Under the pieces are notes generated by a model. It was not told the DNA's origin, searched no databases, and saw only the letters and a program-made list of their open reading frames with translations. This document shows, piece by piece, positions 9,997-39,163 of a stretch of 52,861 nt of DNA. Both the position numbers and the translations under genes were made by a program. Positions within the stretch are counted from its first letter, which is position 1. Each line of letters starts with the position of its first letter. Source of the DNA: an uncultured Clostridia bacterium (GTDB lineage Bacteria > Bacillota > Clostridia > Christensenellales > Borkfalkiaceae); NCBI GenBank assembly GCA_944341075.1, contig CALVLV010000013.1, positions 1 through 52,861 of the forward strand. The letters run 5' to 3'.

Positions 9997-11289
9997 ATGA
10001 TAGATATCAACCTTATAAGGGAAAACCCCGAGCTGGTAAAAGAGAATATCAGAAAAAAGTTCCAGGATAAAAAATTGCCCCTCGTGGACGAGGTGCTCGC
10101 CCTCGATTCAGAAAAGCGCGCCCTTCAGCGCGAAGGGGACGAGCGCAGGGCAAAGCGCAACAGCCTTTCAAAGCAGATAGGCTCCCTTATGAAGGAGGGC
10201 AAAAAGGAAGAGGCCGAAGAGGTAAAGGCCGAAGTAAAGGAGAACAACGACCGCGTCGCACAGATAGAGGCGCGCTCCGCCGAAATAGACCTTCAGCTTA
10301 AAAAGGACATGATGGCCATTCCCAACATCATAGCGGACGACGTGCCCATCGGCAAAGACGACAGCCAGAACGTTCAGTGGAATACCTATCTCGAGGCAAA
10401 GGAAAAGCCCTTCGAAGTCCCCTATCATGTTGACATACTCGAACGCCTCGGCGGCATAGATCTCGACAGCGCAAGGCGCACCTCGGGCAACGGCTTCTAT
10501 TACCTCATCGGCGATGTTGCCCGCCTTCATTCCGCCGTGCTCACCTATGCGCGCGACTTTATGATAGATAAGGGCTTCACCTACGTGATCCCCCCGTTCA
10601 TGATCCGCAGCGACGTCGTTTCCGGCGTAATGAGCTTTGAAGAGATGGACGGCATGATGTACAAGATAGAGGGGGAGGATCTGTACCTTATAGGCACTTC
10701 AGAACACTCCATGATAGGCCGCTTCATGAACACCGTGTTAGACGAAAAGCAGCTGCCGCTCACGCTGACTTCCTATTCGCCCTGCTTCCGCAAGGAAAAG
10801 GGCGCACACGGCATAGAGGAGCGCGGCATCTACCGCATACACCAGTTTGAAAAGCAGGAGATGATAGTTGTCTGCAAGCCCGAGGAGAGCGACTATTGGT
10901 ACGAAAAGTTGTGGTCGTATACCGTAGAGCTGTTCGTATCCATGGGTATACCCGTGCGCACGCTTGTATGCTGCTCGGGCGACCTTGCCGACCTCAAGTA
11001 CCGCAGCCTCGACGTAGAGGCGTGGAGCCCCCGCCAGAAGAAGTATTTCGAGGTAGGCAGCTGCTCCAACCTCACCGACGCGCAGGCGCGCAGGCTGGGC
11101 ATACGCTTCAAAAATTCGGCAACGGGTAAAAACCAGTTTGCGCACACCCTGAACAACACCGTGGTGGCTCCCCCCAGAATGCTCATCGCCTTCCTCGAAA
11201 ATCACCTGCAGGAAGACGGCTCGGTATTCATTCCCGAGGTGCTGCGCAAGTATATGGGCGGCAAGGACTACATTCGCCCTAAAAAATAA
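9997..11289 (+). CDS. serS: Serine--tRNA ligase
   Basis: 430 residues, normal for bacterial SerRS. The N-terminal 110 residues form the long antiparallel coiled coil that grips the tRNA-Ser variable arm. The class II catalytic core follows, with FRKEKGAHG plus IYRIHQFEKQEM (motif 2) and LNNTVVAPPRMLIAFLEN (motif 3, with the invariant Arg). The enzyme charges tRNA-Ser, and the product also feeds tRNA-Sec where present. AGGAGATT precedes the ATG. Monocistronic as far as can be seen, with its own promoter and a repeat-rich stretch downstream. The second half of motif 3 (APPR) differs from the AVGR-like form I would expect in many Firmicutes, a minor lineage variation. Confidence 0.95.
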   Translation: MIDINLIRENPELVKENIRKKFQDKKLPLVDEVLALDSEKRALQREGDERRAKRNSLSKQIGSLMKEGKKEEAEEVKAEVKENNDRVAQIEARSAEIDLQLKKDMMAIPNIIADDVPIGKDDSQNVQWNTYLEAKEKPFEVPYHVDILERLGGIDLDSARRTSGNGFYYLIGDVARLHSAVLTYARDFMIDKGFTYVIPPFMIRSDVVSGVMSFEEMDGMMYKIEGEDLYLIGTSEHSMIGRFMNTVLDEKQLPLTLTSYSPCFRKEKGAHGIEERGIYRIHQFEKQEMIVVCKPEESDYWYEKLWSYTVELFVSMGIPVRTLVCCSGDLADLKYRSLDVEAWSPRQKKYFEVGSCSNLTDAQARRLGIRFKNSATGKNQFAHTLNNTVVAPPRMLIAFLENHLQEDGSVFIPEVLRKYMGGKDYIRPKK

Positions 11290-33934: not shown

Positions 33935-33974
33935 GTGTTGCATATTTTGGTGGGATTATTTTTTTGTTGCGGCA

Positions 33975-34018
33975 TAAAACAAATGCCCTTTGAGGTATCG
34001 CTCAAAGGGCTTGTAATG
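33975..34018 (-). repeat. 44 bp terminator-type repeat, copy 1 (original tRNA-Thr terminator)
   Basis: The hairpin GCCCTTTGAG/CTCAAAGGGC is followed on the minus strand by ATTTGTTTT. It sits directly downstream of the 22 bp tRNA-Thr remnant, so it is probably the terminator that once followed the intact tRNA. 38 of 44 positions match copy 2 at 34115-34158. Confidence 0.7.
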
Positions 34019-34037
34019 GAGCTACTGGCCGGATTCG
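34016..34037 (-). repeat. attL-like remnant: 3' end of tRNA-Thr
   Basis: 22 bases identical to and in the same orientation as 38293-38314 inside the intact tRNA-Thr gene (T-loop to CCA plus one base). This is the typical displaced 3' end left by integration at a tRNA gene. Confidence 0.75.
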
Positions 34038-34114
34038 TAAGGAGCGAAGCGACGGAATAGCGATTGTTGCGCATAGCGCCAATCGCGTCCATATTTCGTT
34101 CTCGGACAGCAGCT

Positions 34115-34158
34115 TAAAACAAATGCCCTTTGAGATGCTTCTCAAAGGGCTTGTAATG
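34115..34158 (-). repeat. 44 bp terminator-type repeat, copy 2
   Basis: Same hairpin arms as copy 1 with a different six-base loop, exactly 140 bp away. It lies 76 bp after the AAA+ gene and probably ends its transcript. Confidence 0.7.
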
Positions 34159-34233
34159 TCTTTAGTGTACGAAAAAGCTGCGCTCACAAGCGCTTGTGCA
34201 AGAAAAAAGCCGCGGGAAATAGCTGGAGACTAT

Positions 34234-35685
34234 TTATGACAGTGTTTTTATTCCTCCGAGTTCATTCAATATTTTCTCGCACTCGGGCTTGAAGATGTTT
34301 CCTTTCTCGACAAGTATGGGTATGAGCTTTTTGATGAGCTCAGCGTTTGCCTCAATAATCGGTTTTGCCTTTTTGTAGCAATCGTCGATTATTTTGTCAA
34401 ACTCGGCATTAACCTTATTCAGCTTTTCCTGTGTATATTTGATGTCATCATTACGGTCGCTCGAGTATCTCAAATCCAGCCCCATCAGCCCGTCTCTTGA
34501 CATTCCAGAAAGGATACAGTCCACCGTTGTAAGCAGATAATATGTATTGTCGTAAAGTTTATTCAGTACCAATTCTTCGGCAACGTAACCGCCCATAAGC
34601 GCACAAATGGCATTCAGATAGTCTGCCTTCGTGTAGTAGAAACTGCAATTGTCATCATCTTCATCATCGTTATAATTATCGTCCTCATTGTCGTAGTTTC
34701 TGTCGCGGAACCCTATTCCGCCCGTTTCGCTATCTTCGTCATCGGGCTGTATGCCAAAGTCAATGCCGTCCTCGTCATCAAAGTCGTCATCATACTGGCT
34801 TATAGTTGCATTGAAATACAGGTTGCAGACTGTATTATTGCCGAGCCTGAGCAGATAATCGCCGGAATTTAAGCTTCTCGCCACTATAAAGCAACCTATG
34901 TTGCGGCAGGCATTTATCATGTCGGCCTGTGTTGGCATTCTTCGCGGCAAATCTTCCGATTTGCTTTCAAGTATGCGTTCCTTTATCAGTTTTTCCGAAA
35001 TAAAACCGTTTTTGTCCGATTGTAAAACGCATTCGTTTACCAGCGTTTCGAGCGCCGCGCACGAAAATCTGTTGCATAACTTAGCAAGTTCTTCCATTGT
35101 CATTTCAAATGTGCAGCTCGTCTTTCCCGCATAAAATTTGAGAATTTCCACGCGCGAGGGGTAGTCTGGCCGCCCGATATGTATTTTCTTGTCGATTCTG
35201 CCGGGACGGACGAGGGTAGAGGGGAGATTTTCGTAGTCATTGCATGTCGCTACAAAAATAAAATTCTTATTGCTGTTCATGCCGTCGATAAGGGTGAGCA
35301 ACTGTGCAAGAATGGCTTTTGAGTGGTCGGAGTAGTATTCTTCGCTTACGTTGGGCAACACTTTGTCCATTTCATCAAAGAAAATCATTGTTGGTTTGTT
35401 GGATTTTCGTGCACTGTCAAAGGCTTTCTTTATCCTTTTAAGAAGCGAACTTTTGTCTGCCATGTTGCCAAGGTCTATGTTAATCATTTCAAGTTTGCAT
35501 ATGCTCGCCATTACCTTGGCAAACAACGTTTTGCCCGTTCCAGTTTCGCCATAAAAAATTATGCCTTTTGGCAGTTTCGCTCCGCGCTCCAGGTATATAT
35601 CCCTGTTATTTATTATTTCGCAAAGCCTTTTAAGTTCCTCCTTTTCTTGTGCATAACCCGCTATATCCGCTAATCTGTAATTCAT
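34234..35685 (-). CDS. Soluble FtsH-like AAA+ ATPase with an inactivated M41 protease domain
   Basis: 483 residues, no membrane helix. AAA+ module (1-245): Walker A GETGTGKT (46-53), Walker B FFDEMD (102-107), sensor ATCND (146-150), Arg fingers in RPGR (160-163). What follows matches FtsH's M41 region in order, but the zinc site HEAGH is replaced by RNIGC (261-265). The GGYVAEELV helix (365-373) is kept, yet the third zinc ligand (the Asp of FtsH GASND) appears lost. A 50-residue Asp/Glu/Asn-rich insert (about 298-347) splits the domain. The C-terminal helices resemble FtsH's. It probably remodels proteins without cutting them. Good ribosome site (GGAGGTG). Divergent from the RHH-WYL regulator, which may control it. 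Confidence 0.8.
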   Translation of the reverse strand: MNYRLADIAGYAQEKEELKRLCEIINNRDIYLERGAKLPKGIIFYGETGTGKTLFAKVMASICKLEMINIDLGNMADKSSLLKRIKKAFDSARKSNKPTMIFFDEMDKVLPNVSEEYYSDHSKAILAQLLTLIDGMNSNKNFIFVATCNDYENLPSTLVRPGRIDKKIHIGRPDYPSRVEILKFYAGKTSCTFEMTMEELAKLCNRFSCAALETLVNECVLQSDKNGFISEKLIKERILESKSEDLPRRMPTQADMINACRNIGCFIVARSLNSGDYLLRLGNNTVCNLYFNATISQYDDDFDDEDGIDFGIQPDDEDSETGGIGFRDRNYDNEDDNYNDDEDDDNCSFYYTKADYLNAICALMGGYVAEELVLNKLYDNTYYLLTTVDCILSGMSRDGLMGLDLRYSSDRNDDIKYTQEKLNKVNAEFDKIIDDCYKKAKPIIEANAELIKKLIPILVEKGNIFKPECEKILNELGGIKTLS

Positions 35686-35769
35686 GTTTTCACCTCCGTA
35701 AAATTTAATTGTACTTCCATTTTATACTATCGGCTCCAAAAAGGAATACCGCAATATGTATAATTTTTT

Positions 35770-35832
35770 TGACCCCTTTTTTAAAGGTACGATAATTAAA
35801 TTTTGCTTGATTTATGACCCCTTTTAGGGTAC
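35770..35832. promoter_or_regulatory. Paired operator-like repeats between the AAA+ and RHH-WYL genes
   Basis: TGACCCCTTTTTTAAAGGTAC (first 20 of its 21 bases end GTA) at 35770-35790 and TGACCCCTTTTAGGGTAC at 35815-35832 share TGACCCCTTTT and a GGTAC end and are each partly palindromic. The second fills the spacer of the regulator's promoter. Confidence 0.6.
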
Positions 35833-35835
35833 AAT
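35807..35835 (+). promoter_or_regulatory. Promoter of the RHH-WYL regulator
   Basis: TTGATT (35807-35812), 17 bp spacer, TACAAT (35830-35835). An operator-like repeat overlaps the spacer, as expected for autoregulation. Confidence 0.7.
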
Positions 35836-35857
35836 ACAAATAAATGGAGGGAATTTT

Positions 35858-36850
35858 ATGGACGAAAAAATAAAAATCAGTGCTCCAAAATCGGTCTATG
35901 AACTTTTAAAGAAGGACTGTGAAGATTTCAAGATAACTAAACCGGACGGTTCTCCCAACATGAATGCATTTTTGAATGCTGTCGTTTCTGATTTCTATGA
36001 GGAATTTGCGGGTGCGGAAGAAAAATTGCGCGACGATGTCAGAAAAGCTGTCGAAATAGTGCCGGATCGCTATCGGGAGACGGTGTTTTTAAATACATTG
36101 AAGATACTTAATAAAAAGCAGACTGATAGCGAAAATAAACAAAGCAAGGTCTTTGCTTTCAAACCTACAAGGAACACGGAAAAAGCGGTAATATACATAG
36201 AAAATTTGTTGTTGCAGAATGAATCACTCTCCTCGTATTACAGAAGATTGTTTACTGCATATTCGCAGAAGACGAAAAACGAGCGGGAAAAGATACTCTT
36301 CAGGGAAAATTATTCCCTTTTGATGAAAGCTGTTAAAAAGGGAGTAAAGGTCTGCATTTCATTTGCAAACGGGAACGTTATAAAGGGAGCGTCCGTTTAC
36401 TCTATAAGCGCGGCAAAAGAGGAGCTTTTTAATTATGTGCTTTTCTATAACGGCAAACAGAATGTCACGGTAAGACTTGCTTCGGTAAAAACAGTATCTC
36501 TGCTTGCCGAAAGAAGTGAAATTCCCGAAGAAAATGCCGAGTTGTTCAGGCGCCAGGTGGAGTGTGCGCCGCAGTATCCCATGTATAATACAGACAGGGA
36601 ATCTATAAAAGTGCAGCTTACGGAAAAGGGCAAAGAGCTGTTCAAAAAAATTTATCTGTATCGGCCGACGCCCGTCAGCGTAGAAGGCGATATATATACG
36701 TTTAATTGTTCTGCAAACCAGCTTTTATATTACTTTGAACGCTTCGGAGACAGTGCAATCATTCTCTCTCCCAAAAAACTTGGTATTTTTATGCGTAACT
36801 ATTACTATTTTGCCTATAAAAAATATAAGTCGCTTTATAGCAGAGATTGA
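35858..36850 (+). CDS. Ribbon-helix-helix / WYL-domain regulator
   Basis: 330 residues, strong ribosome site (TGGAGGG). Residues 1-55 (KIKISAPKSVYELLKKDC, then PNMNAFLNAVVSDFY) fit a ribbon-helix-helix DNA-binding unit. A helical linker follows to about 165. Residues about 165-235 look like a WYL domain (VKVCISFANG, then KEELFNYVLFYNG and RLASVKTVSLL), an Sm-like fold that senses nucleic acid or other ligands. The last 90 residues form the usual C-terminal extension. RHH-WYL proteins include the WYL1 accessory proteins found beside Cas13d and regulators of phage-defence loci, but no Cas gene is seen here. It most likely binds the paired repeats in the divergent promoter. AT-rich, consistent with the island. 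Confidence 0.7.
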   Translation: MDEKIKISAPKSVYELLKKDCEDFKITKPDGSPNMNAFLNAVVSDFYEEFAGAEEKLRDDVRKAVEIVPDRYRETVFLNTLKILNKKQTDSENKQSKVFAFKPTRNTEKAVIYIENLLLQNESLSSYYRRLFTAYSQKTKNEREKILFRENYSLLMKAVKKGVKVCISFANGNVIKGASVYSISAAKEELFNYVLFYNGKQNVTVRLASVKTVSLLAERSEIPEENAELFRRQVECAPQYPMYNTDRESIKVQLTEKGKELFKKIYLYRPTPVSVEGDIYTFNCSANQLLYYFERFGDSAIILSPKKLGIFMRNYYYFAYKKYKSLYSRD

Positions 36851-36892
36851 ATAACGTAGAAACTCTGCTAACTGGAATCAGTCAGATATTAT

Positions 36893-36930
36893 AAAAACCC
36901 GAACCGTTTAATTTTATCGGTTCGGGTTTT
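36893..36930 (+). terminator. Terminator of the RHH-WYL gene
   Basis: AAAAACCCGAACCG pairs with CGGTTCGGGTTTT over an 11 nt AT loop. Confidence 0.9.
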
Positions 36931-36966
36931 ATAATGTAAAAAAAATTATTTAAAAGGAGAAAGACA

Positions 36967-38091
36967 ATGAGGATTTACACAGAAACTGAACGCAAAAAGA
37001 TTTATGAATTATGGCAAACCAATCAACCTGTAAGCCGTATCACAGAGCTTACAGAAGCATCGCGTAGTACGGTGTATCGGACAATTAAGGGTTACGAACT
37101 TAAAGGGAACAGCGAATCTATTTTACGAAAATACGTTGCTAAACTAGAGACTAAGATAAGAAGGCTTGAACAAAAATTAGAAATTATCAAGCAAGTTGGG
37201 TGTTCGCCCAATGCTCCTTTGCGGGAAAAGTTGGTTGCTCTTGAAACATTGTATGGAAAGTACAGCGTTCATTTGTTGTGCGAAACGATGGAAGTGTCCG
37301 GAGGGACGTTTTATAATCACATATTACGAAATAAGCGCGACAATACGTGGTATGCAAAACAGCGCGAAATACTCCGTGTAGAAATAAAAAGAGTGTATGA
37401 TGATAGTAATCAGGTGTTTGGTGCAGGCAAAATTACAGCTGTACTTAAAGAGCGTGGTTACAATACGTGCGAGGAAACTGTACGGAGACTTATGAAGGAT
37501 ATGGGGCTTGTGAGTATAAGGCAGAGGGCAAAAGCTCTATATGAACAAGAGAAAAGGAGGGTGCCAAATAATGTGTTGAACCAGCAATTTACTGTCAAAA
37601 GACCAAACAGTGTATGGGTGAGCGATGTTACATGTTATAAGTTCGGAAATAAGATATTCTATATATGCGCAATTCTTGACCTGTATGCTCGAAAGGTTGT
37701 AGGATGCAGAGCGGGGTTGAGTAACAGTACCCAACTCGTAAAGAGAACATTTAAGGAAGCGTATGAGAATAGAAAACCTGAAAAGTTGCTTTTGCATACG
37801 GACAGGGGAAGCAATTACAGCTCCTATACATTCAACTCGTATTTAAAATCTATTGCCGTAACGCATTCCTTTTCGCGGGCGTATGTGCCTTATGATAATT
37901 CTGTAATGGAGTCGTTCTTTTCAAACATGAAGAGGGAAGAGTTATACAGGCGCAAATACCGTTCCGAAAGAGAAATACATAAAGCCATAACCGACTATGT
38001 AACCTTTTATAATGATAAGCGCCCGCATATAAGCAACGGGTATAAAACGCCGACAGCAAAAGAAGAGCTGTATTTTAAGAATTTGTCCTGA
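36967..38091 (+). CDS. IS3-family transposase, single-ORF form
   Basis: 374 residues. N-terminal helix-turn-helix (about 1-45), a leucine-rich coiled coil (about 55-75), an HTH_21-like region (about 120-185: VYDDSNQVFGAGKITAVL) and a C-terminal integrase core with the DDE triad in VWVSDVTCYK, LLHTDRGSNYSS and MESFFSNMKREEL. Most IS3 members make this product by -1 frameshifting between orfA and orfB; here it is one uninterrupted frame. It has a good ribosome site (AAAAGGAGA). Clear terminal inverted repeats were not found; TGAGACA at 38089-38095 and TGTCTCA at 38160-38166 are possible remnants. It may be a passenger of the island rather than the enzyme that integrated it. Confidence 0.88.
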   Translation: MRIYTETERKKIYELWQTNQPVSRITELTEASRSTVYRTIKGYELKGNSESILRKYVAKLETKIRRLEQKLEIIKQVGCSPNAPLREKLVALETLYGKYSVHLLCETMEVSGGTFYNHILRNKRDNTWYAKQREILRVEIKRVYDDSNQVFGAGKITAVLKERGYNTCEETVRRLMKDMGLVSIRQRAKALYEQEKRRVPNNVLNQQFTVKRPNSVWVSDVTCYKFGNKIFYICAILDLYARKVVGCRAGLSNSTQLVKRTFKEAYENRKPEKLLLHTDRGSNYSSYTFNSYLKSIAVTHSFSRAYVPYDNSVMESFFSNMKREELYRRKYRSEREIHKAITDYVTFYNDKRPHISNGYKTPTAKEELYFKNLS

Positions 38092-38230
38092 GACAGGGGG
38101 TTCAGATTGTAAGGATTTTTACTTTTACTTTTCGGTTTGAAGGTTTTTTCAAAACTGCTGTCTCAATGCCTCATTTTGAAAAGTAGCAAAAATGAGGTTT
38201 AATCACGTAAAACAAGCTCAAAAATTGCAT

Positions 38231-38290
38231 AAAAAAAGAATCACCTTAACGACTGTCCCAACTTAGGGGTTAAGATTGTTAAGGTGATTC
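38231..38290 (-). terminator. Current terminator of tRNA-Thr (island-derived)
   Basis: On the minus strand GAATCACCTTAAC pairs with GTTAAGGTGATTC (13 bp, 27 nt loop) and a seven-T run follows. It starts three bases after the encoded CCA and replaces the displaced original at 33975-34018. Confidence 0.8.
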
Positions 38291-38292
38291 AG

Positions 38293-38314
38293 ATGGAGCT
38301 ACTGGCCGGATTCG
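38293..38314 (-). repeat. attR-like repeat inside tRNA-Thr
   Basis: Direct repeat of 34016-34037; covers the T-loop, T-stem 3' arm, acceptor 3' arm and CCA. Confidence 0.75.
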
Positions 38315-38369
38315 AACCGGCGACCTGCTGATTACGAATCAGCTGCTCTACCAGCTGAGCCACAGTAGC
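38294..38369 (-). tRNA. tRNA-Thr(CGU)
   Basis: A complete 76 nt cloverleaf on the minus strand. Acceptor arms GCTACTG/CAGTAGC, D-stem GCTC/GAGC, anticodon arm GCTGA-TTCGTAA-TCAGC with anticodon CGT (reads ACG, Thr), T-arm GCCGG-TTCGAAT-CCGGC, discriminator T and encoded CCA. It is the integration site of the 4.3 kb island. Confidence 0.93.
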
Positions 38370-38391
38370 ATTTTCTTTAGCTGACCTAAAT

Positions 38392-38419
38392 ATTATAACA
38401 TATTTTTATTATTTTGCAA
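38392..38419 (-). promoter_or_regulatory. Promoter of tRNA-Thr
   Basis: On the minus strand TTGCAA (38414-38419), 16 bp spacer, TATAAT (38392-38397), about 23 bp upstream of the mature 5' end. Confidence 0.6.
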
Positions 38420-38473
38420 GCATTTTAGTGTGTACGGCCACATATTTTTTGCTCAATGTAAGTAAAATACGGT

Positions 38474-39163
38474 ATGTTGCTATCCAGGCGTTTTTACGGC
38501 GTTTCAAGGCTGTGTTGTTGTGTGCTGTCCGTGATAATCATTTTGCTTTGCGCGGGGCTTTCGTCGTCATGCGCGCAGGCATACGGCGCTGTCAGGTTGC
38601 GGGTAAAATGTTATATGGCATATTGCACCGCATCTCCCGATGGGGAGGGTAATTGTGATATAGGAACCGCCGTGCGCGCATATGGAGGTGCCGGCTATAA
38701 CTTCAGTTACGATGGAACAGATTACGTTGCGGTTGGTTGTTTTATGCTCAAAGGTGAGGCGCAGGACTTTGTTCAAAAGCTGGATGTCGTCGGCTTTTCT
38801 GCAGACGTAAAGGAGCTTTCGGAACACAGGTTTGAACTTTATAATTATTCTGCGGCTCAGAACGCCGAGGGCTATACGGAAACCTTGAAACAACTGTATG
38901 AACTTATTCGGGAGCTGTGCGGTATAGCCGAGGCGCTCGATTACCGCGGAGGAGAAGGGGAGGCGCGCAGTCGGCTTGTAGTGATCGCACAGGATATGTC
39001 TGCATTGCTTGCCGAAAATGAAGGCAATTGCTTCACGCCGCCACTTGCCCGCCTCTCCGTGCTTGCCGCCGACTGTGCGTACAGGCGGTTGCTCTACGCG
39101 CGAGACGTCCGCTATCTGCAGATGGGCGTGGCGGATGTGCTTTTCAATACACGGCTGACATAG
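38474..39163 (+). CDS. Secreted SPOR-like protein
   Basis: 229 residues. A signal peptide spans residues 1-35 (RRFYGVSR, a hydrophobic core rich in Cys/Leu/Ile, then SSSCAQA with probable cleavage after AQA). The next 80 residues resemble a SPOR fold (RVKCYMAYCT, then DYVAVGCFMLKGEAQDFVQKL and VGFSADVKEL), a module that binds denuded peptidoglycan glycan at division or spore septa. The C-terminal half (about 120-229) is an unrecognised helical domain. There is no obvious ribosome site before ATG 38474, so the exact start is uncertain. The neighbouring convergent murG also concerns cell wall. Confidence 0.55.
   Translation: MLLSRRFYGVSRLCCCVLSVIIILLCAGLSSSCAQAYGAVRLRVKCYMAYCTASPDGEGNCDIGTAVRAYGGAGYNFSYDGTDYVAVGCFMLKGEAQDFVQKLDVVGFSADVKELSEHRFELYNYSAAQNAEGYTETLKQLYELIRELCGIAEALDYRGGEGEARSRLVVIAQDMSALLAENEGNCFTPPLARLSVLAADCAYRRLLYARDVRYLQMGVADVLFNTRLT

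Follow-up and report, generated by a model that had tools for sequence, protein, structure and literature searches.

We analysed a 52,861-nucleotide stretch of the genome of an uncultured Clostridia bacterium of the Borkfalkiaceae (contig CALVLV010000013.1, assembly GCA_944341075.1; 'the window' throughout), in which two divergently transcribed genes lie beside a tRNA-Thr(CGU) gene. One encodes an FtsH-like AAA+ ATPase with a degenerate M41 peptidase domain, the other a WYL-domain regulator of putative ribbon-helix-helix (RHH) type (Table 1; G, L and C numbers denote genomes, loci and contigs). A first-pass annotation of the sequence had taken the pair for the cargo of a compact island bounded by direct 22-bp repeats of the tRNA 3′ end. 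Most of what it described is present: the tRNA gene is called, the repeat is exact, the displaced tRNA end is followed by a terminator-like hairpin on the tRNA strand that occurs twice, and the cargo is AT-rich, with about 35–46% G+C across positions 34000–38500 against about 43–59% in the profiled flanks. That annotation made no mention of the intact IS3-family transposase gene, which is single-copy in the window's genome, present in the related genome G002 and absent from the locus of another, G039. Domain and family searches recognised only the AAA+, WYL and IS3 transposase genes between the 22-bp repeats, and no integrase.

Table 1. Features of the tRNA-Thr(CGU) locus, by position in the window.
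Feature	Positions	Strand	Basis
Array hairpin copy 1, terminator-like, 3′ of the displaced tRNA end	33969–34018	-	86% alike to 34109–34158
tRNA-Thr 3′-end copy, member of the array unit	34016–34037	-	exact repeat of 38293–38314
Dispersed short genome repeat, within the array unit	34035–34092	none	genome matches
Array hairpin 2, terminator-like	34109–34158	-	repeat search
Left junction of the module, 23-bp stretch	34157–34179	none	same stretch in pair-free G037
FtsH-like AAA+ ATPase gene, degenerate M41 domain	34234–35685	-	Pfam AAA and Peptidase_M41; Foldseek FtsH
Acidic insert of the pseudo-protease domain, predicted disordered, about residues 297–347	34645–34797	-	composition and pLDDT
CRNIG, residues 260–264, at the position of FtsH HEXXH	34894–34908	-	alignment with FtsH
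Box O1, TGACCCC, conserved	35770–35776	+	comparison of loci
Regulator promoter, TTGATT, 17 bp, TACAAT, with O2 inside	35807–35835	+	sequence; kept in relatives
Box O2, TGACCCC, between −35 and −10, conserved	35815–35821	+	comparison of loci
RHH-WYL regulator gene, RspWYL1-like	35858–36850	+	profile, Foldseek, PADLOC WYL
Terminator-like hairpin 3′ of the regulator	36894–36930	+	inverted-repeat search
IS3-family transposase gene, intact	36967–38091	+	NF033516, 1e-84
Terminator-like hairpin currently serving tRNA-Thr	38230–38290	-	stem GAATCACCTTAAC / GTTAAGGTGATTC read in the sequence
tRNA-Thr(CGU)	38294–38369	-	tRNA call

The pair recurs well beyond this genome. Scanning GTDB species genomes with a regulator profile returned 38 loci, in metagenome-assembled genomes titled Clostridia or relatives, Mollicutes and Bacilli; 37 of these cover the regulator and one (L118) is a fragment, and counts out of 38 given below refer to the window plus those 37. 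The AAA+ gene adjoins the regulator in divergent orientation in 30 of the 35 testable loci (the 37 regulator loci minus two truncated where the contig ends; L082, L083 and L111, three of the 30, are same-genus genomes), and the Bacilli locus L115 also carries the pair. Small unknown proteins stand in place of the AAA+ partner in L098, L104 and L105, and in two Mollicutes loci (L113 and L114) ClpP-like and type IV coupling genes are among the genes on the AAA+ side. Our searches of the open-access PMC literature found no description of the pair. Judged from sequence comparison, it is a genuine, conserved and so far unnamed two-gene module.

Within the genus, 4 of the 92 other genomes have an AAA+ orthologue (G002, 88%; G039, 87%; G034, 66%; G013, 41%), and a fifth, G043, has a 24-residue C-terminal fragment at a contig end; the pair is located elsewhere in G034, and G013 lacks the regulator. 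The first-pass annotation had called for a comparison with relatives whose tRNA-Thr site is empty and for a search for other such pairs: pair-free sites exist, the site is variable among relatives and the two genes are often found together elsewhere. When the window is compared with G002 or G039, DNA identity is as high for the AAA+ gene as for pyrE (84–85%), a pattern that fits descent in place in those two genomes. In G043, by contrast, the module matches the window perfectly over its first 153 bp whereas pyrE is only 73% identical, which suggests a recent transfer; the draft contig ends there.

Several individual loci have features of their own. The regulator gene of L112 (8592–9580) is split into two overlapping frames. 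Proteins with leucine-rich repeats (LRRs) lie on the other side of L113 and L114, the L113 protein with TIR and weak NACHT matches. A tRNA-Lys(TTT) gene sits between the conserved promoter region and the AAA+ gene at L089 (2947–3023) and L101 (5404–5480); it lies on the AAA+ strand and may therefore be co-transcribed with that gene.

By sequence and predicted structure, the regulator is a WYL1-like RHH-WYL protein. Its sole informative match in a PDB profile search was RspWYL1 (6oaw; 5.1e-9, residues 122–318, profile A1), which was also the best Foldseek match of its AlphaFold model (predicted local distance difference test score (pLDDT) 87) at 3.2e-14 over 380 columns, with TM scores of 0.62 and 0.54 and a root-mean-square deviation of 8.1 that makes the domain arrangement uncertain. 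The PADLOC WYL model also matched (3.1e-5). No Pfam RHH model matched, nor did any helix-turn-helix (HTH) or winged-helix Pfam model; the N-terminus is predicted to form strand–helix–helix (E5–10, H11–23, H35–65). Of the annotated divergent RHH-WYL gene, the divergence and the WYL match are therefore borne out, and the RHH label rests on the likeness to RspWYL1. That protein, WYL1 of the type VI-D Cas13d system, shares with the regulator an RHH-type N-domain, a Sm-like WYL barrel and a C-terminal domain. It is described as having two RHH motifs in one chain and a Sm-like WYL domain, as binding single-stranded RNA (ssRNA) much better than single-stranded or double-stranded DNA, and as boosting Cas13d (PMC6547453); the window regulator, in contrast, has an AAA+ gene as its divergent neighbour and carries a conserved box in the promoter of its own gene. 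The next Foldseek matches, PafBC, DriD, CapW and BrxR, are similar in fold and in published descriptions regulate DNA-damage or defence genes. The window regulator does not belong to their winged-HTH–WYL class, as it lacks an N-terminal winged HTH by Pfam and by predicted secondary structure; its boxes, moreover, are arranged as direct repeats, in contrast to the inverted repeats described for BrxR. To our knowledge, WYL1-type proteins have so far been known only as Cas13d helpers.

The AAA+ protein matches Pfam AAA (4e-28) and Peptidase_M41 (1.2e-8), and lies near FtsH and other classic AAA proteins: by sequence the best-scoring chains are Cdc48-type and by fold FtsH, with 2ce7 at 1.5e-21 and both FtsH chains and chains of the Ycf2–FtsHi complex among the top Foldseek matches. 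It falls short of the curated FtsH score (TIGR01241, 164.3 against 600), and the alignment with the FtsH model pairs its residue 4 with model position 160, with no N-terminal FtsH part matched. As the first-pass annotation had proposed, the protease appears dead: the zinc motif HEXXH is absent from all 120 relatives and reads CRNIG in the window protein. The FtsH-type pore loop is likewise missing from all 120, whereas the same expression finds it in 42 of 52 FtsH-like proteins. The ATPase motifs are kept (Walker A in 116 of the 120, Walker B in 118 and RPGR-D in 115). An acidic insert with at least 30% aspartate or glutamate is present in 120 of 121 aligned rows (median 42 residues, 53% acidic, net charge −21), and is predicted to be disordered in the window protein (pLDDT below 50 at residues 307–347). 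The protein thus shares the AAA and M41 fold with FtsH and plant FtsHi, and differs from FtsH in lacking HEXXH and the FtsH-type pore loop, in its acidic insert and in its divergent WYL gene. Plant FtsHi proteins are also protease-dead. A sister branch around the Bacilli locus (L115:2252–3568, P0241–P0274) has HEXXH in 34 of 34 proteins and the FtsH pore loop in none of the 34.

Upstream of the regulator, the comparison of loci uncovered a conserved box. All 38 loci have TG(A/C)CC(A/C)C no more than 170 nt before the regulator start, and 31 have two or more copies; mononucleotide shuffles give 0.02 per locus, a contrast that is descriptive only because the motif was picked from the same sequences. 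Start-to-start spacing is 44–45 nt in 18 loci, 55–56 in 11, 48 in one and 33 in one, the two main classes being about one DNA turn apart. The second box of the window sits between TTGATT and TACAAT, which are 17 bp apart. Boxes are retained with the regulator in loci without the AAA+ gene (L098, L104, L105, L113 and L114). Across the whole genome, an extended box pattern had one exact match, none with one or two mismatches and 31 with three (reversed control, 23), a pattern that would suit a purely local autoregulator.

A paralogue of the regulator connects the family with RNA repair. Among 301 family genomes, 17, including the window's own, have a regulator match above 500 bits, and 13 others have matches of 92–250 bits only; the window's genome has one of each kind. 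The weaker class comprises 14 matches, of which 13 loci were fetched. In the window's genome, the paralogous RHH-WYL gene (G000:C6:24438–25430; L146:6436–7446) faces genes for RtcB and for S165, a 161-residue protein that is weakly DIP1984-like, below cut-off. S165 is divergent from and adjoins the paralogue in 12 of the 13 fetched loci, the contig of the thirteenth ending there, and RtcB is found in 6 of the 13 stretches, that of the window's genome included. The box MCCCCTTTTTRTGGTA occurs exactly once, near the regulator start, in 12 of the 13 loci, with a one-letter variant in L158; a near-identical pattern has one exact match in the window's genome and eight with three mismatches (control, two).

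The two locus types also share accessory genes. S165 lies between the regulator and the AAA+ gene in L097 and L108, and U317/ACC proteins are encoded in AAA+ loci (L086, L097, L106, L110, L112, L117 and, without the regulator, L054), in the AAA+-less L098, L104 and L105, and in paralogue loci (L148, L149, L150, L154 and L157). With box and accessory genes common to both types, a link to RtcB is indicated. On a tree, the two regulator classes form separate groups (support 1.0); L098, L104 and L105 nest within the AAA+ class, and L113–L114 and L115 fall outside it with mixed support. U317/ACC is an unnamed protein superfamily that, among the examined loci, occurs only in regulator or AAA+ loci, with several tandem copies in L112. 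Open-access PMC literature yielded no description of an RHH-WYL/RtcB link. As a precedent, TrcR of Anabaena is described as an RHH repressor that controls its own gene as well as rtcB and the trn tRNA operon; deletion of trcR raises an AAA ATPase gene, and repression is relieved under translation stress (PMC10272220). The comparison is one of descriptions, and TrcR differs in its binding motif; the main text of that paper does not mention WYL (PMC10272220).

We tentatively consider the most plausible explanation to be a two-gene, locally autoregulated stress module, responding to RNA damage or translation stress, at a variable tRNA-Thr site. The features on which this reading builds are legible in the sequences: the divergent pair, the boxes, the homology to RspWYL1, the loss of protease and pore-loop motifs, the acidic insert, the paralogue and the common accessory genes. 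The RHH-WYL protein would bind both TGMCCMC boxes; from the box between −35 and −10 it would shut its own promoter, and the distal box would reach that of the AAA+ gene. RNA, either cleaved tRNA or other damaged RNA, would bind the WYL or C-terminal part and release the regulator, and the AAA+ protein would then act as an ATP-driven ring or switch. Having neither the FtsH pore loop nor HEXXH, it is expected neither to thread nor to cut but to remodel a partner, perhaps through its acidic insert, and this partner might be the basic regulator itself (isoelectric point 9.3, against 4.8 for the AAA+ protein) or an RNA–protein complex.

Several observations weigh against this explanation. RspWYL1 is reported to prefer ssRNA far over double-stranded DNA, so that DNA binding by the family is uncertain, and the PDB profile match (residues 122–318) does not reach the RHH part. 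The authors of the TrcR study attribute the relief of repression to probable degradation rather than to release by a ligand (PMC10272220). In the fetched stretches, RtcB is present at only 1 of the 38 regulator loci (L110) and a gene for RlaP at one (L092), and the RNA link therefore rests mostly on paralogy. The S165, U317 and ACC families occur in none of 20 control loci, which are fewer and shorter than the loci compared, and the U317 and ACC families overlap and were gathered iteratively from the same set. The proposed trigger and the AAA+ target are guesses. Methyltransferase models match at least one near neighbour, and a TIR/NACHT-like LRR protein is encoded beside L113, either of which would fit defence.

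These last two observations bear on a regulated anti-phage module, in which the WYL protein would sense an infection signal and derepress an AAA+ effector. Such a role has precedent in CapW and BrxR, WYL regulators described as controlling defence loci, and would suit the sporadic presence of the pair, its likely transfer in G043, its L113 neighbour and its homology to the Cas13d helper WYL1. PADLOC also finds an IetA-type AAA similarity (4e-22). The anti-phage IetAS system has a protease partner, IetS. We rejected membership in IetAS, since the NCBIfam IetA model NF042959 scores only 59.6 bits against a cut-off of 510. The defence-island enrichment that the first-pass annotation had suggested tabulating did not emerge either: 79 families in 133 near open reading frames (ORFs) compare with 83 families in 117 far ones in PADLOC tallies, a weak control in which the top 25 families were listed per set and the sets overlap in distance. 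Neighbours were the longest non-overlapping ORFs of at least 120 residues, excluding ORFs of 1000 residues or more, L082 and L111 (same site) and the L118 fragment; they were picked mechanically, and antisense artefacts are therefore likely. Searches with the regulator found it neither in viral contigs nor in phage records, and a plasmid search gave two distant Fusobacterium matches (24–25% identity), of which the one opened sits among ordinary genes. With paralogues facing RtcB as well, we regard a phage-triggered module as somewhat unlikely and favour one that responds to RNA damage or translation stress, although the two overlap because phages and defence nucleases also damage RNA. Of the 'defence or stress module' first proposed, the conserved, regulated pair holds, and the defence part is left unproven by the PADLOC, IetA and viral searches.

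A further alternative casts the AAA+ protein chiefly as a feedback device acting on its own regulator, which it would strip or remodel, with the true output coming from some other gene. The acidic insert, set against a basic regulator, would suit such a device; the sister Bacilli branch keeps a HEXXH site (34 of 34), so the regulator may once have been cleaved by an ancestral protein; the boxes are retained in loci that lack the AAA+ gene; and accessory genes often lie downstream of that gene. The protein–protein interaction is, however, hypothetical, many loci have no conserved third gene and just one Bacilli regulator locus was seen, and we judge this alternative unlikely.

The tRNA-end repeats require a different explanation from the one first offered, namely that they bound an integrated segment. 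The left copy runs into a dispersed repeat and then into a second near-copy of the terminator hairpin, together forming an array unit, and contig C23 of the genome ends in tandem units of the same tRNA-end/terminator design. At least 39 further matches to the dispersed repeat are listed across the genome, of which some are partial or adjoining; 40 candidates from a first look, out of 54, were scored. The repeat measures about 48–60 bp and is often fused to a longer palindrome-like element ending GAGATTTCTCC. In G045, of the same genus, an orthologous unit lies beside tRNA-Thr (L061:5702–5820; 89% identical over 119 bp) and the pair is absent. Conversely, G002 (L051) and G039 (L052) have the pair at the tRNA-Thr site and, by BLAST, no exact far-side copy of the tRNA end; the tRNA side of G039 carries a degenerate tRNA-end unit. 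The 22-bp repeats are therefore not scars of this insertion, and a repeat-bounded island is rejected as stated. The IS3 element is likewise rejected as carrier of the pair, which the G039 locus has without it.

Copies of tRNA ends also arise elsewhere. A copy of the tRNA-Thr 3′ end lies 102–176 nt downstream in 5 of 22 tRNA-Thr loci, all five among the 19 pair-free loci, with 0, 0, 0, 1 and 3 mismatches in 20, and the upstream control side of the 22 loci has none (up to 4 mismatches in 20 allowed over 1500 nt; two of the pair-free loci had less than 1500 nt, and the window's own copy lies beyond that range). In the window's genome, 4 of 25 scanned tRNA genes have direct copies of their own 3′ end within 1.4 kb downstream and two more have an inverted 16-nt copy just past the terminator; several of the 25 sit at contig ends. 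The direct copies are at L130, L134, L137 and L142 (Ser-CGA, Ser-GCT twice, Ser-GGA and Leu-CAG), the inverted ones at L133 and L128 (Ser-TGA and Glu-TTC). Copies of tRNA ends thus arise without the cargo. The pair probably entered a variable site between the tRNA-Thr(CGU) gene and a pre-existing tRNA-end/terminator unit, and its insertion parted one unit from its tRNA. Several near relatives share the order pyrD, pyrE, deacetylase gene, YjzC-like gene, variable part, tRNA-Thr, the gene at 38474 and murG, with different gene content in the variable part. The gene beside tRNA-Thr (38474–39163) diverges fast, with matches in 77 of 93 genomes mostly at 25–42% identity, and has no Pfam family above cut-off.

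The pair nonetheless adjoins a tRNA 3′ end in 6 of the 38 loci (the window, L081, L082, L084, L085 and L111; a raw count of loci partly related on the tree), the end of the regulator facing the tRNA 3′ end within about 1.5 kb, so that tRNA-end arrays may be preferred landing places. The tRNA is tRNA-Thr(CGU) in the window, L082 (G002), L111 (G039) and, in another genus, L081 (G118 of genus g10, matched by coordinates), and tRNA-Leu(TAA) in L084 and L085. In L081 and L084 the stretch from the tRNA to the pair holds exact or near-exact copies of the tRNA end, and in L085 a weak one (4 mismatches); no copy was found on the AAA+ side of these three loci. The copies are evenly spaced in L084 (11673, 11987 and 12301, 314 nt apart) and also occur at 11182 and 11364 in L081. 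A mobile island that uses site-specific recombination to enter tRNA 3′ ends, and borrows the enzyme from another source, could account for the exact repeat, for these six sites, with tRNA-Thr(CGU) in two genera and tRNA-Leu(TAA) in two loci, and for the G043 module start; pair-free G091 also has serine recombinase-like genes, read from their N-termini only, beside tRNA-Thr. We consider such an island improbable, as no integrase was recognised between the repeats, the array unit pre-exists in G045, a far copy is lacking in G002, G039, L081, L084 and L085, and similar copies stand at other tRNAs of the genome, where such cargo was not looked for. The motif TCTTTRRTGTACRAAA was considered and not adopted as a recombination site; it occurs at nine places in 7 of 93 genus genomes, six of them in tRNA-Thr arrays and the other three unread. 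By description, the array resembles the tRNA 3′-end copies repeated downstream of E. coli tyrT (RtT RNA); Rfam gave no match to an RtT-like family at the array, and sub-cut-off Rfam matches (ctRNA_pGA1, 28 against 45; IS128, 22 against 80; Plastid-ycf2, 34 against 66) were set aside.

Seen more broadly, RHH-WYL proteins could be autoregulators that sense RNA damage, the Clostridia equivalent of RtcR and TrcR: one branch of the family would turn on S165–RtcB RNA repair, another a new type of ATP-driven pseudo-FtsH ring that has neither pore loop nor protease, and WYL1 would have been recruited from the family. This is conceivable, if on the doubtful side; were it true, recruitment of the Cas13d WYL1 from this family would explain its ssRNA binding. 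For these genomes, tRNA-end repeats alone are no evidence of integration. The comparison brings out an AAA+ branch in which both the protease site and the FtsH pore loop have gone and the ATPase motifs are kept, beside a sister branch that keeps HEXXH, and an unnamed module gains a concrete regulatory anatomy of two boxes with fixed spacing, one of them inside the promoter. WYL1-type proteins are now linked to RtcB genes, and what they sense becomes directly testable with a promoter fusion.

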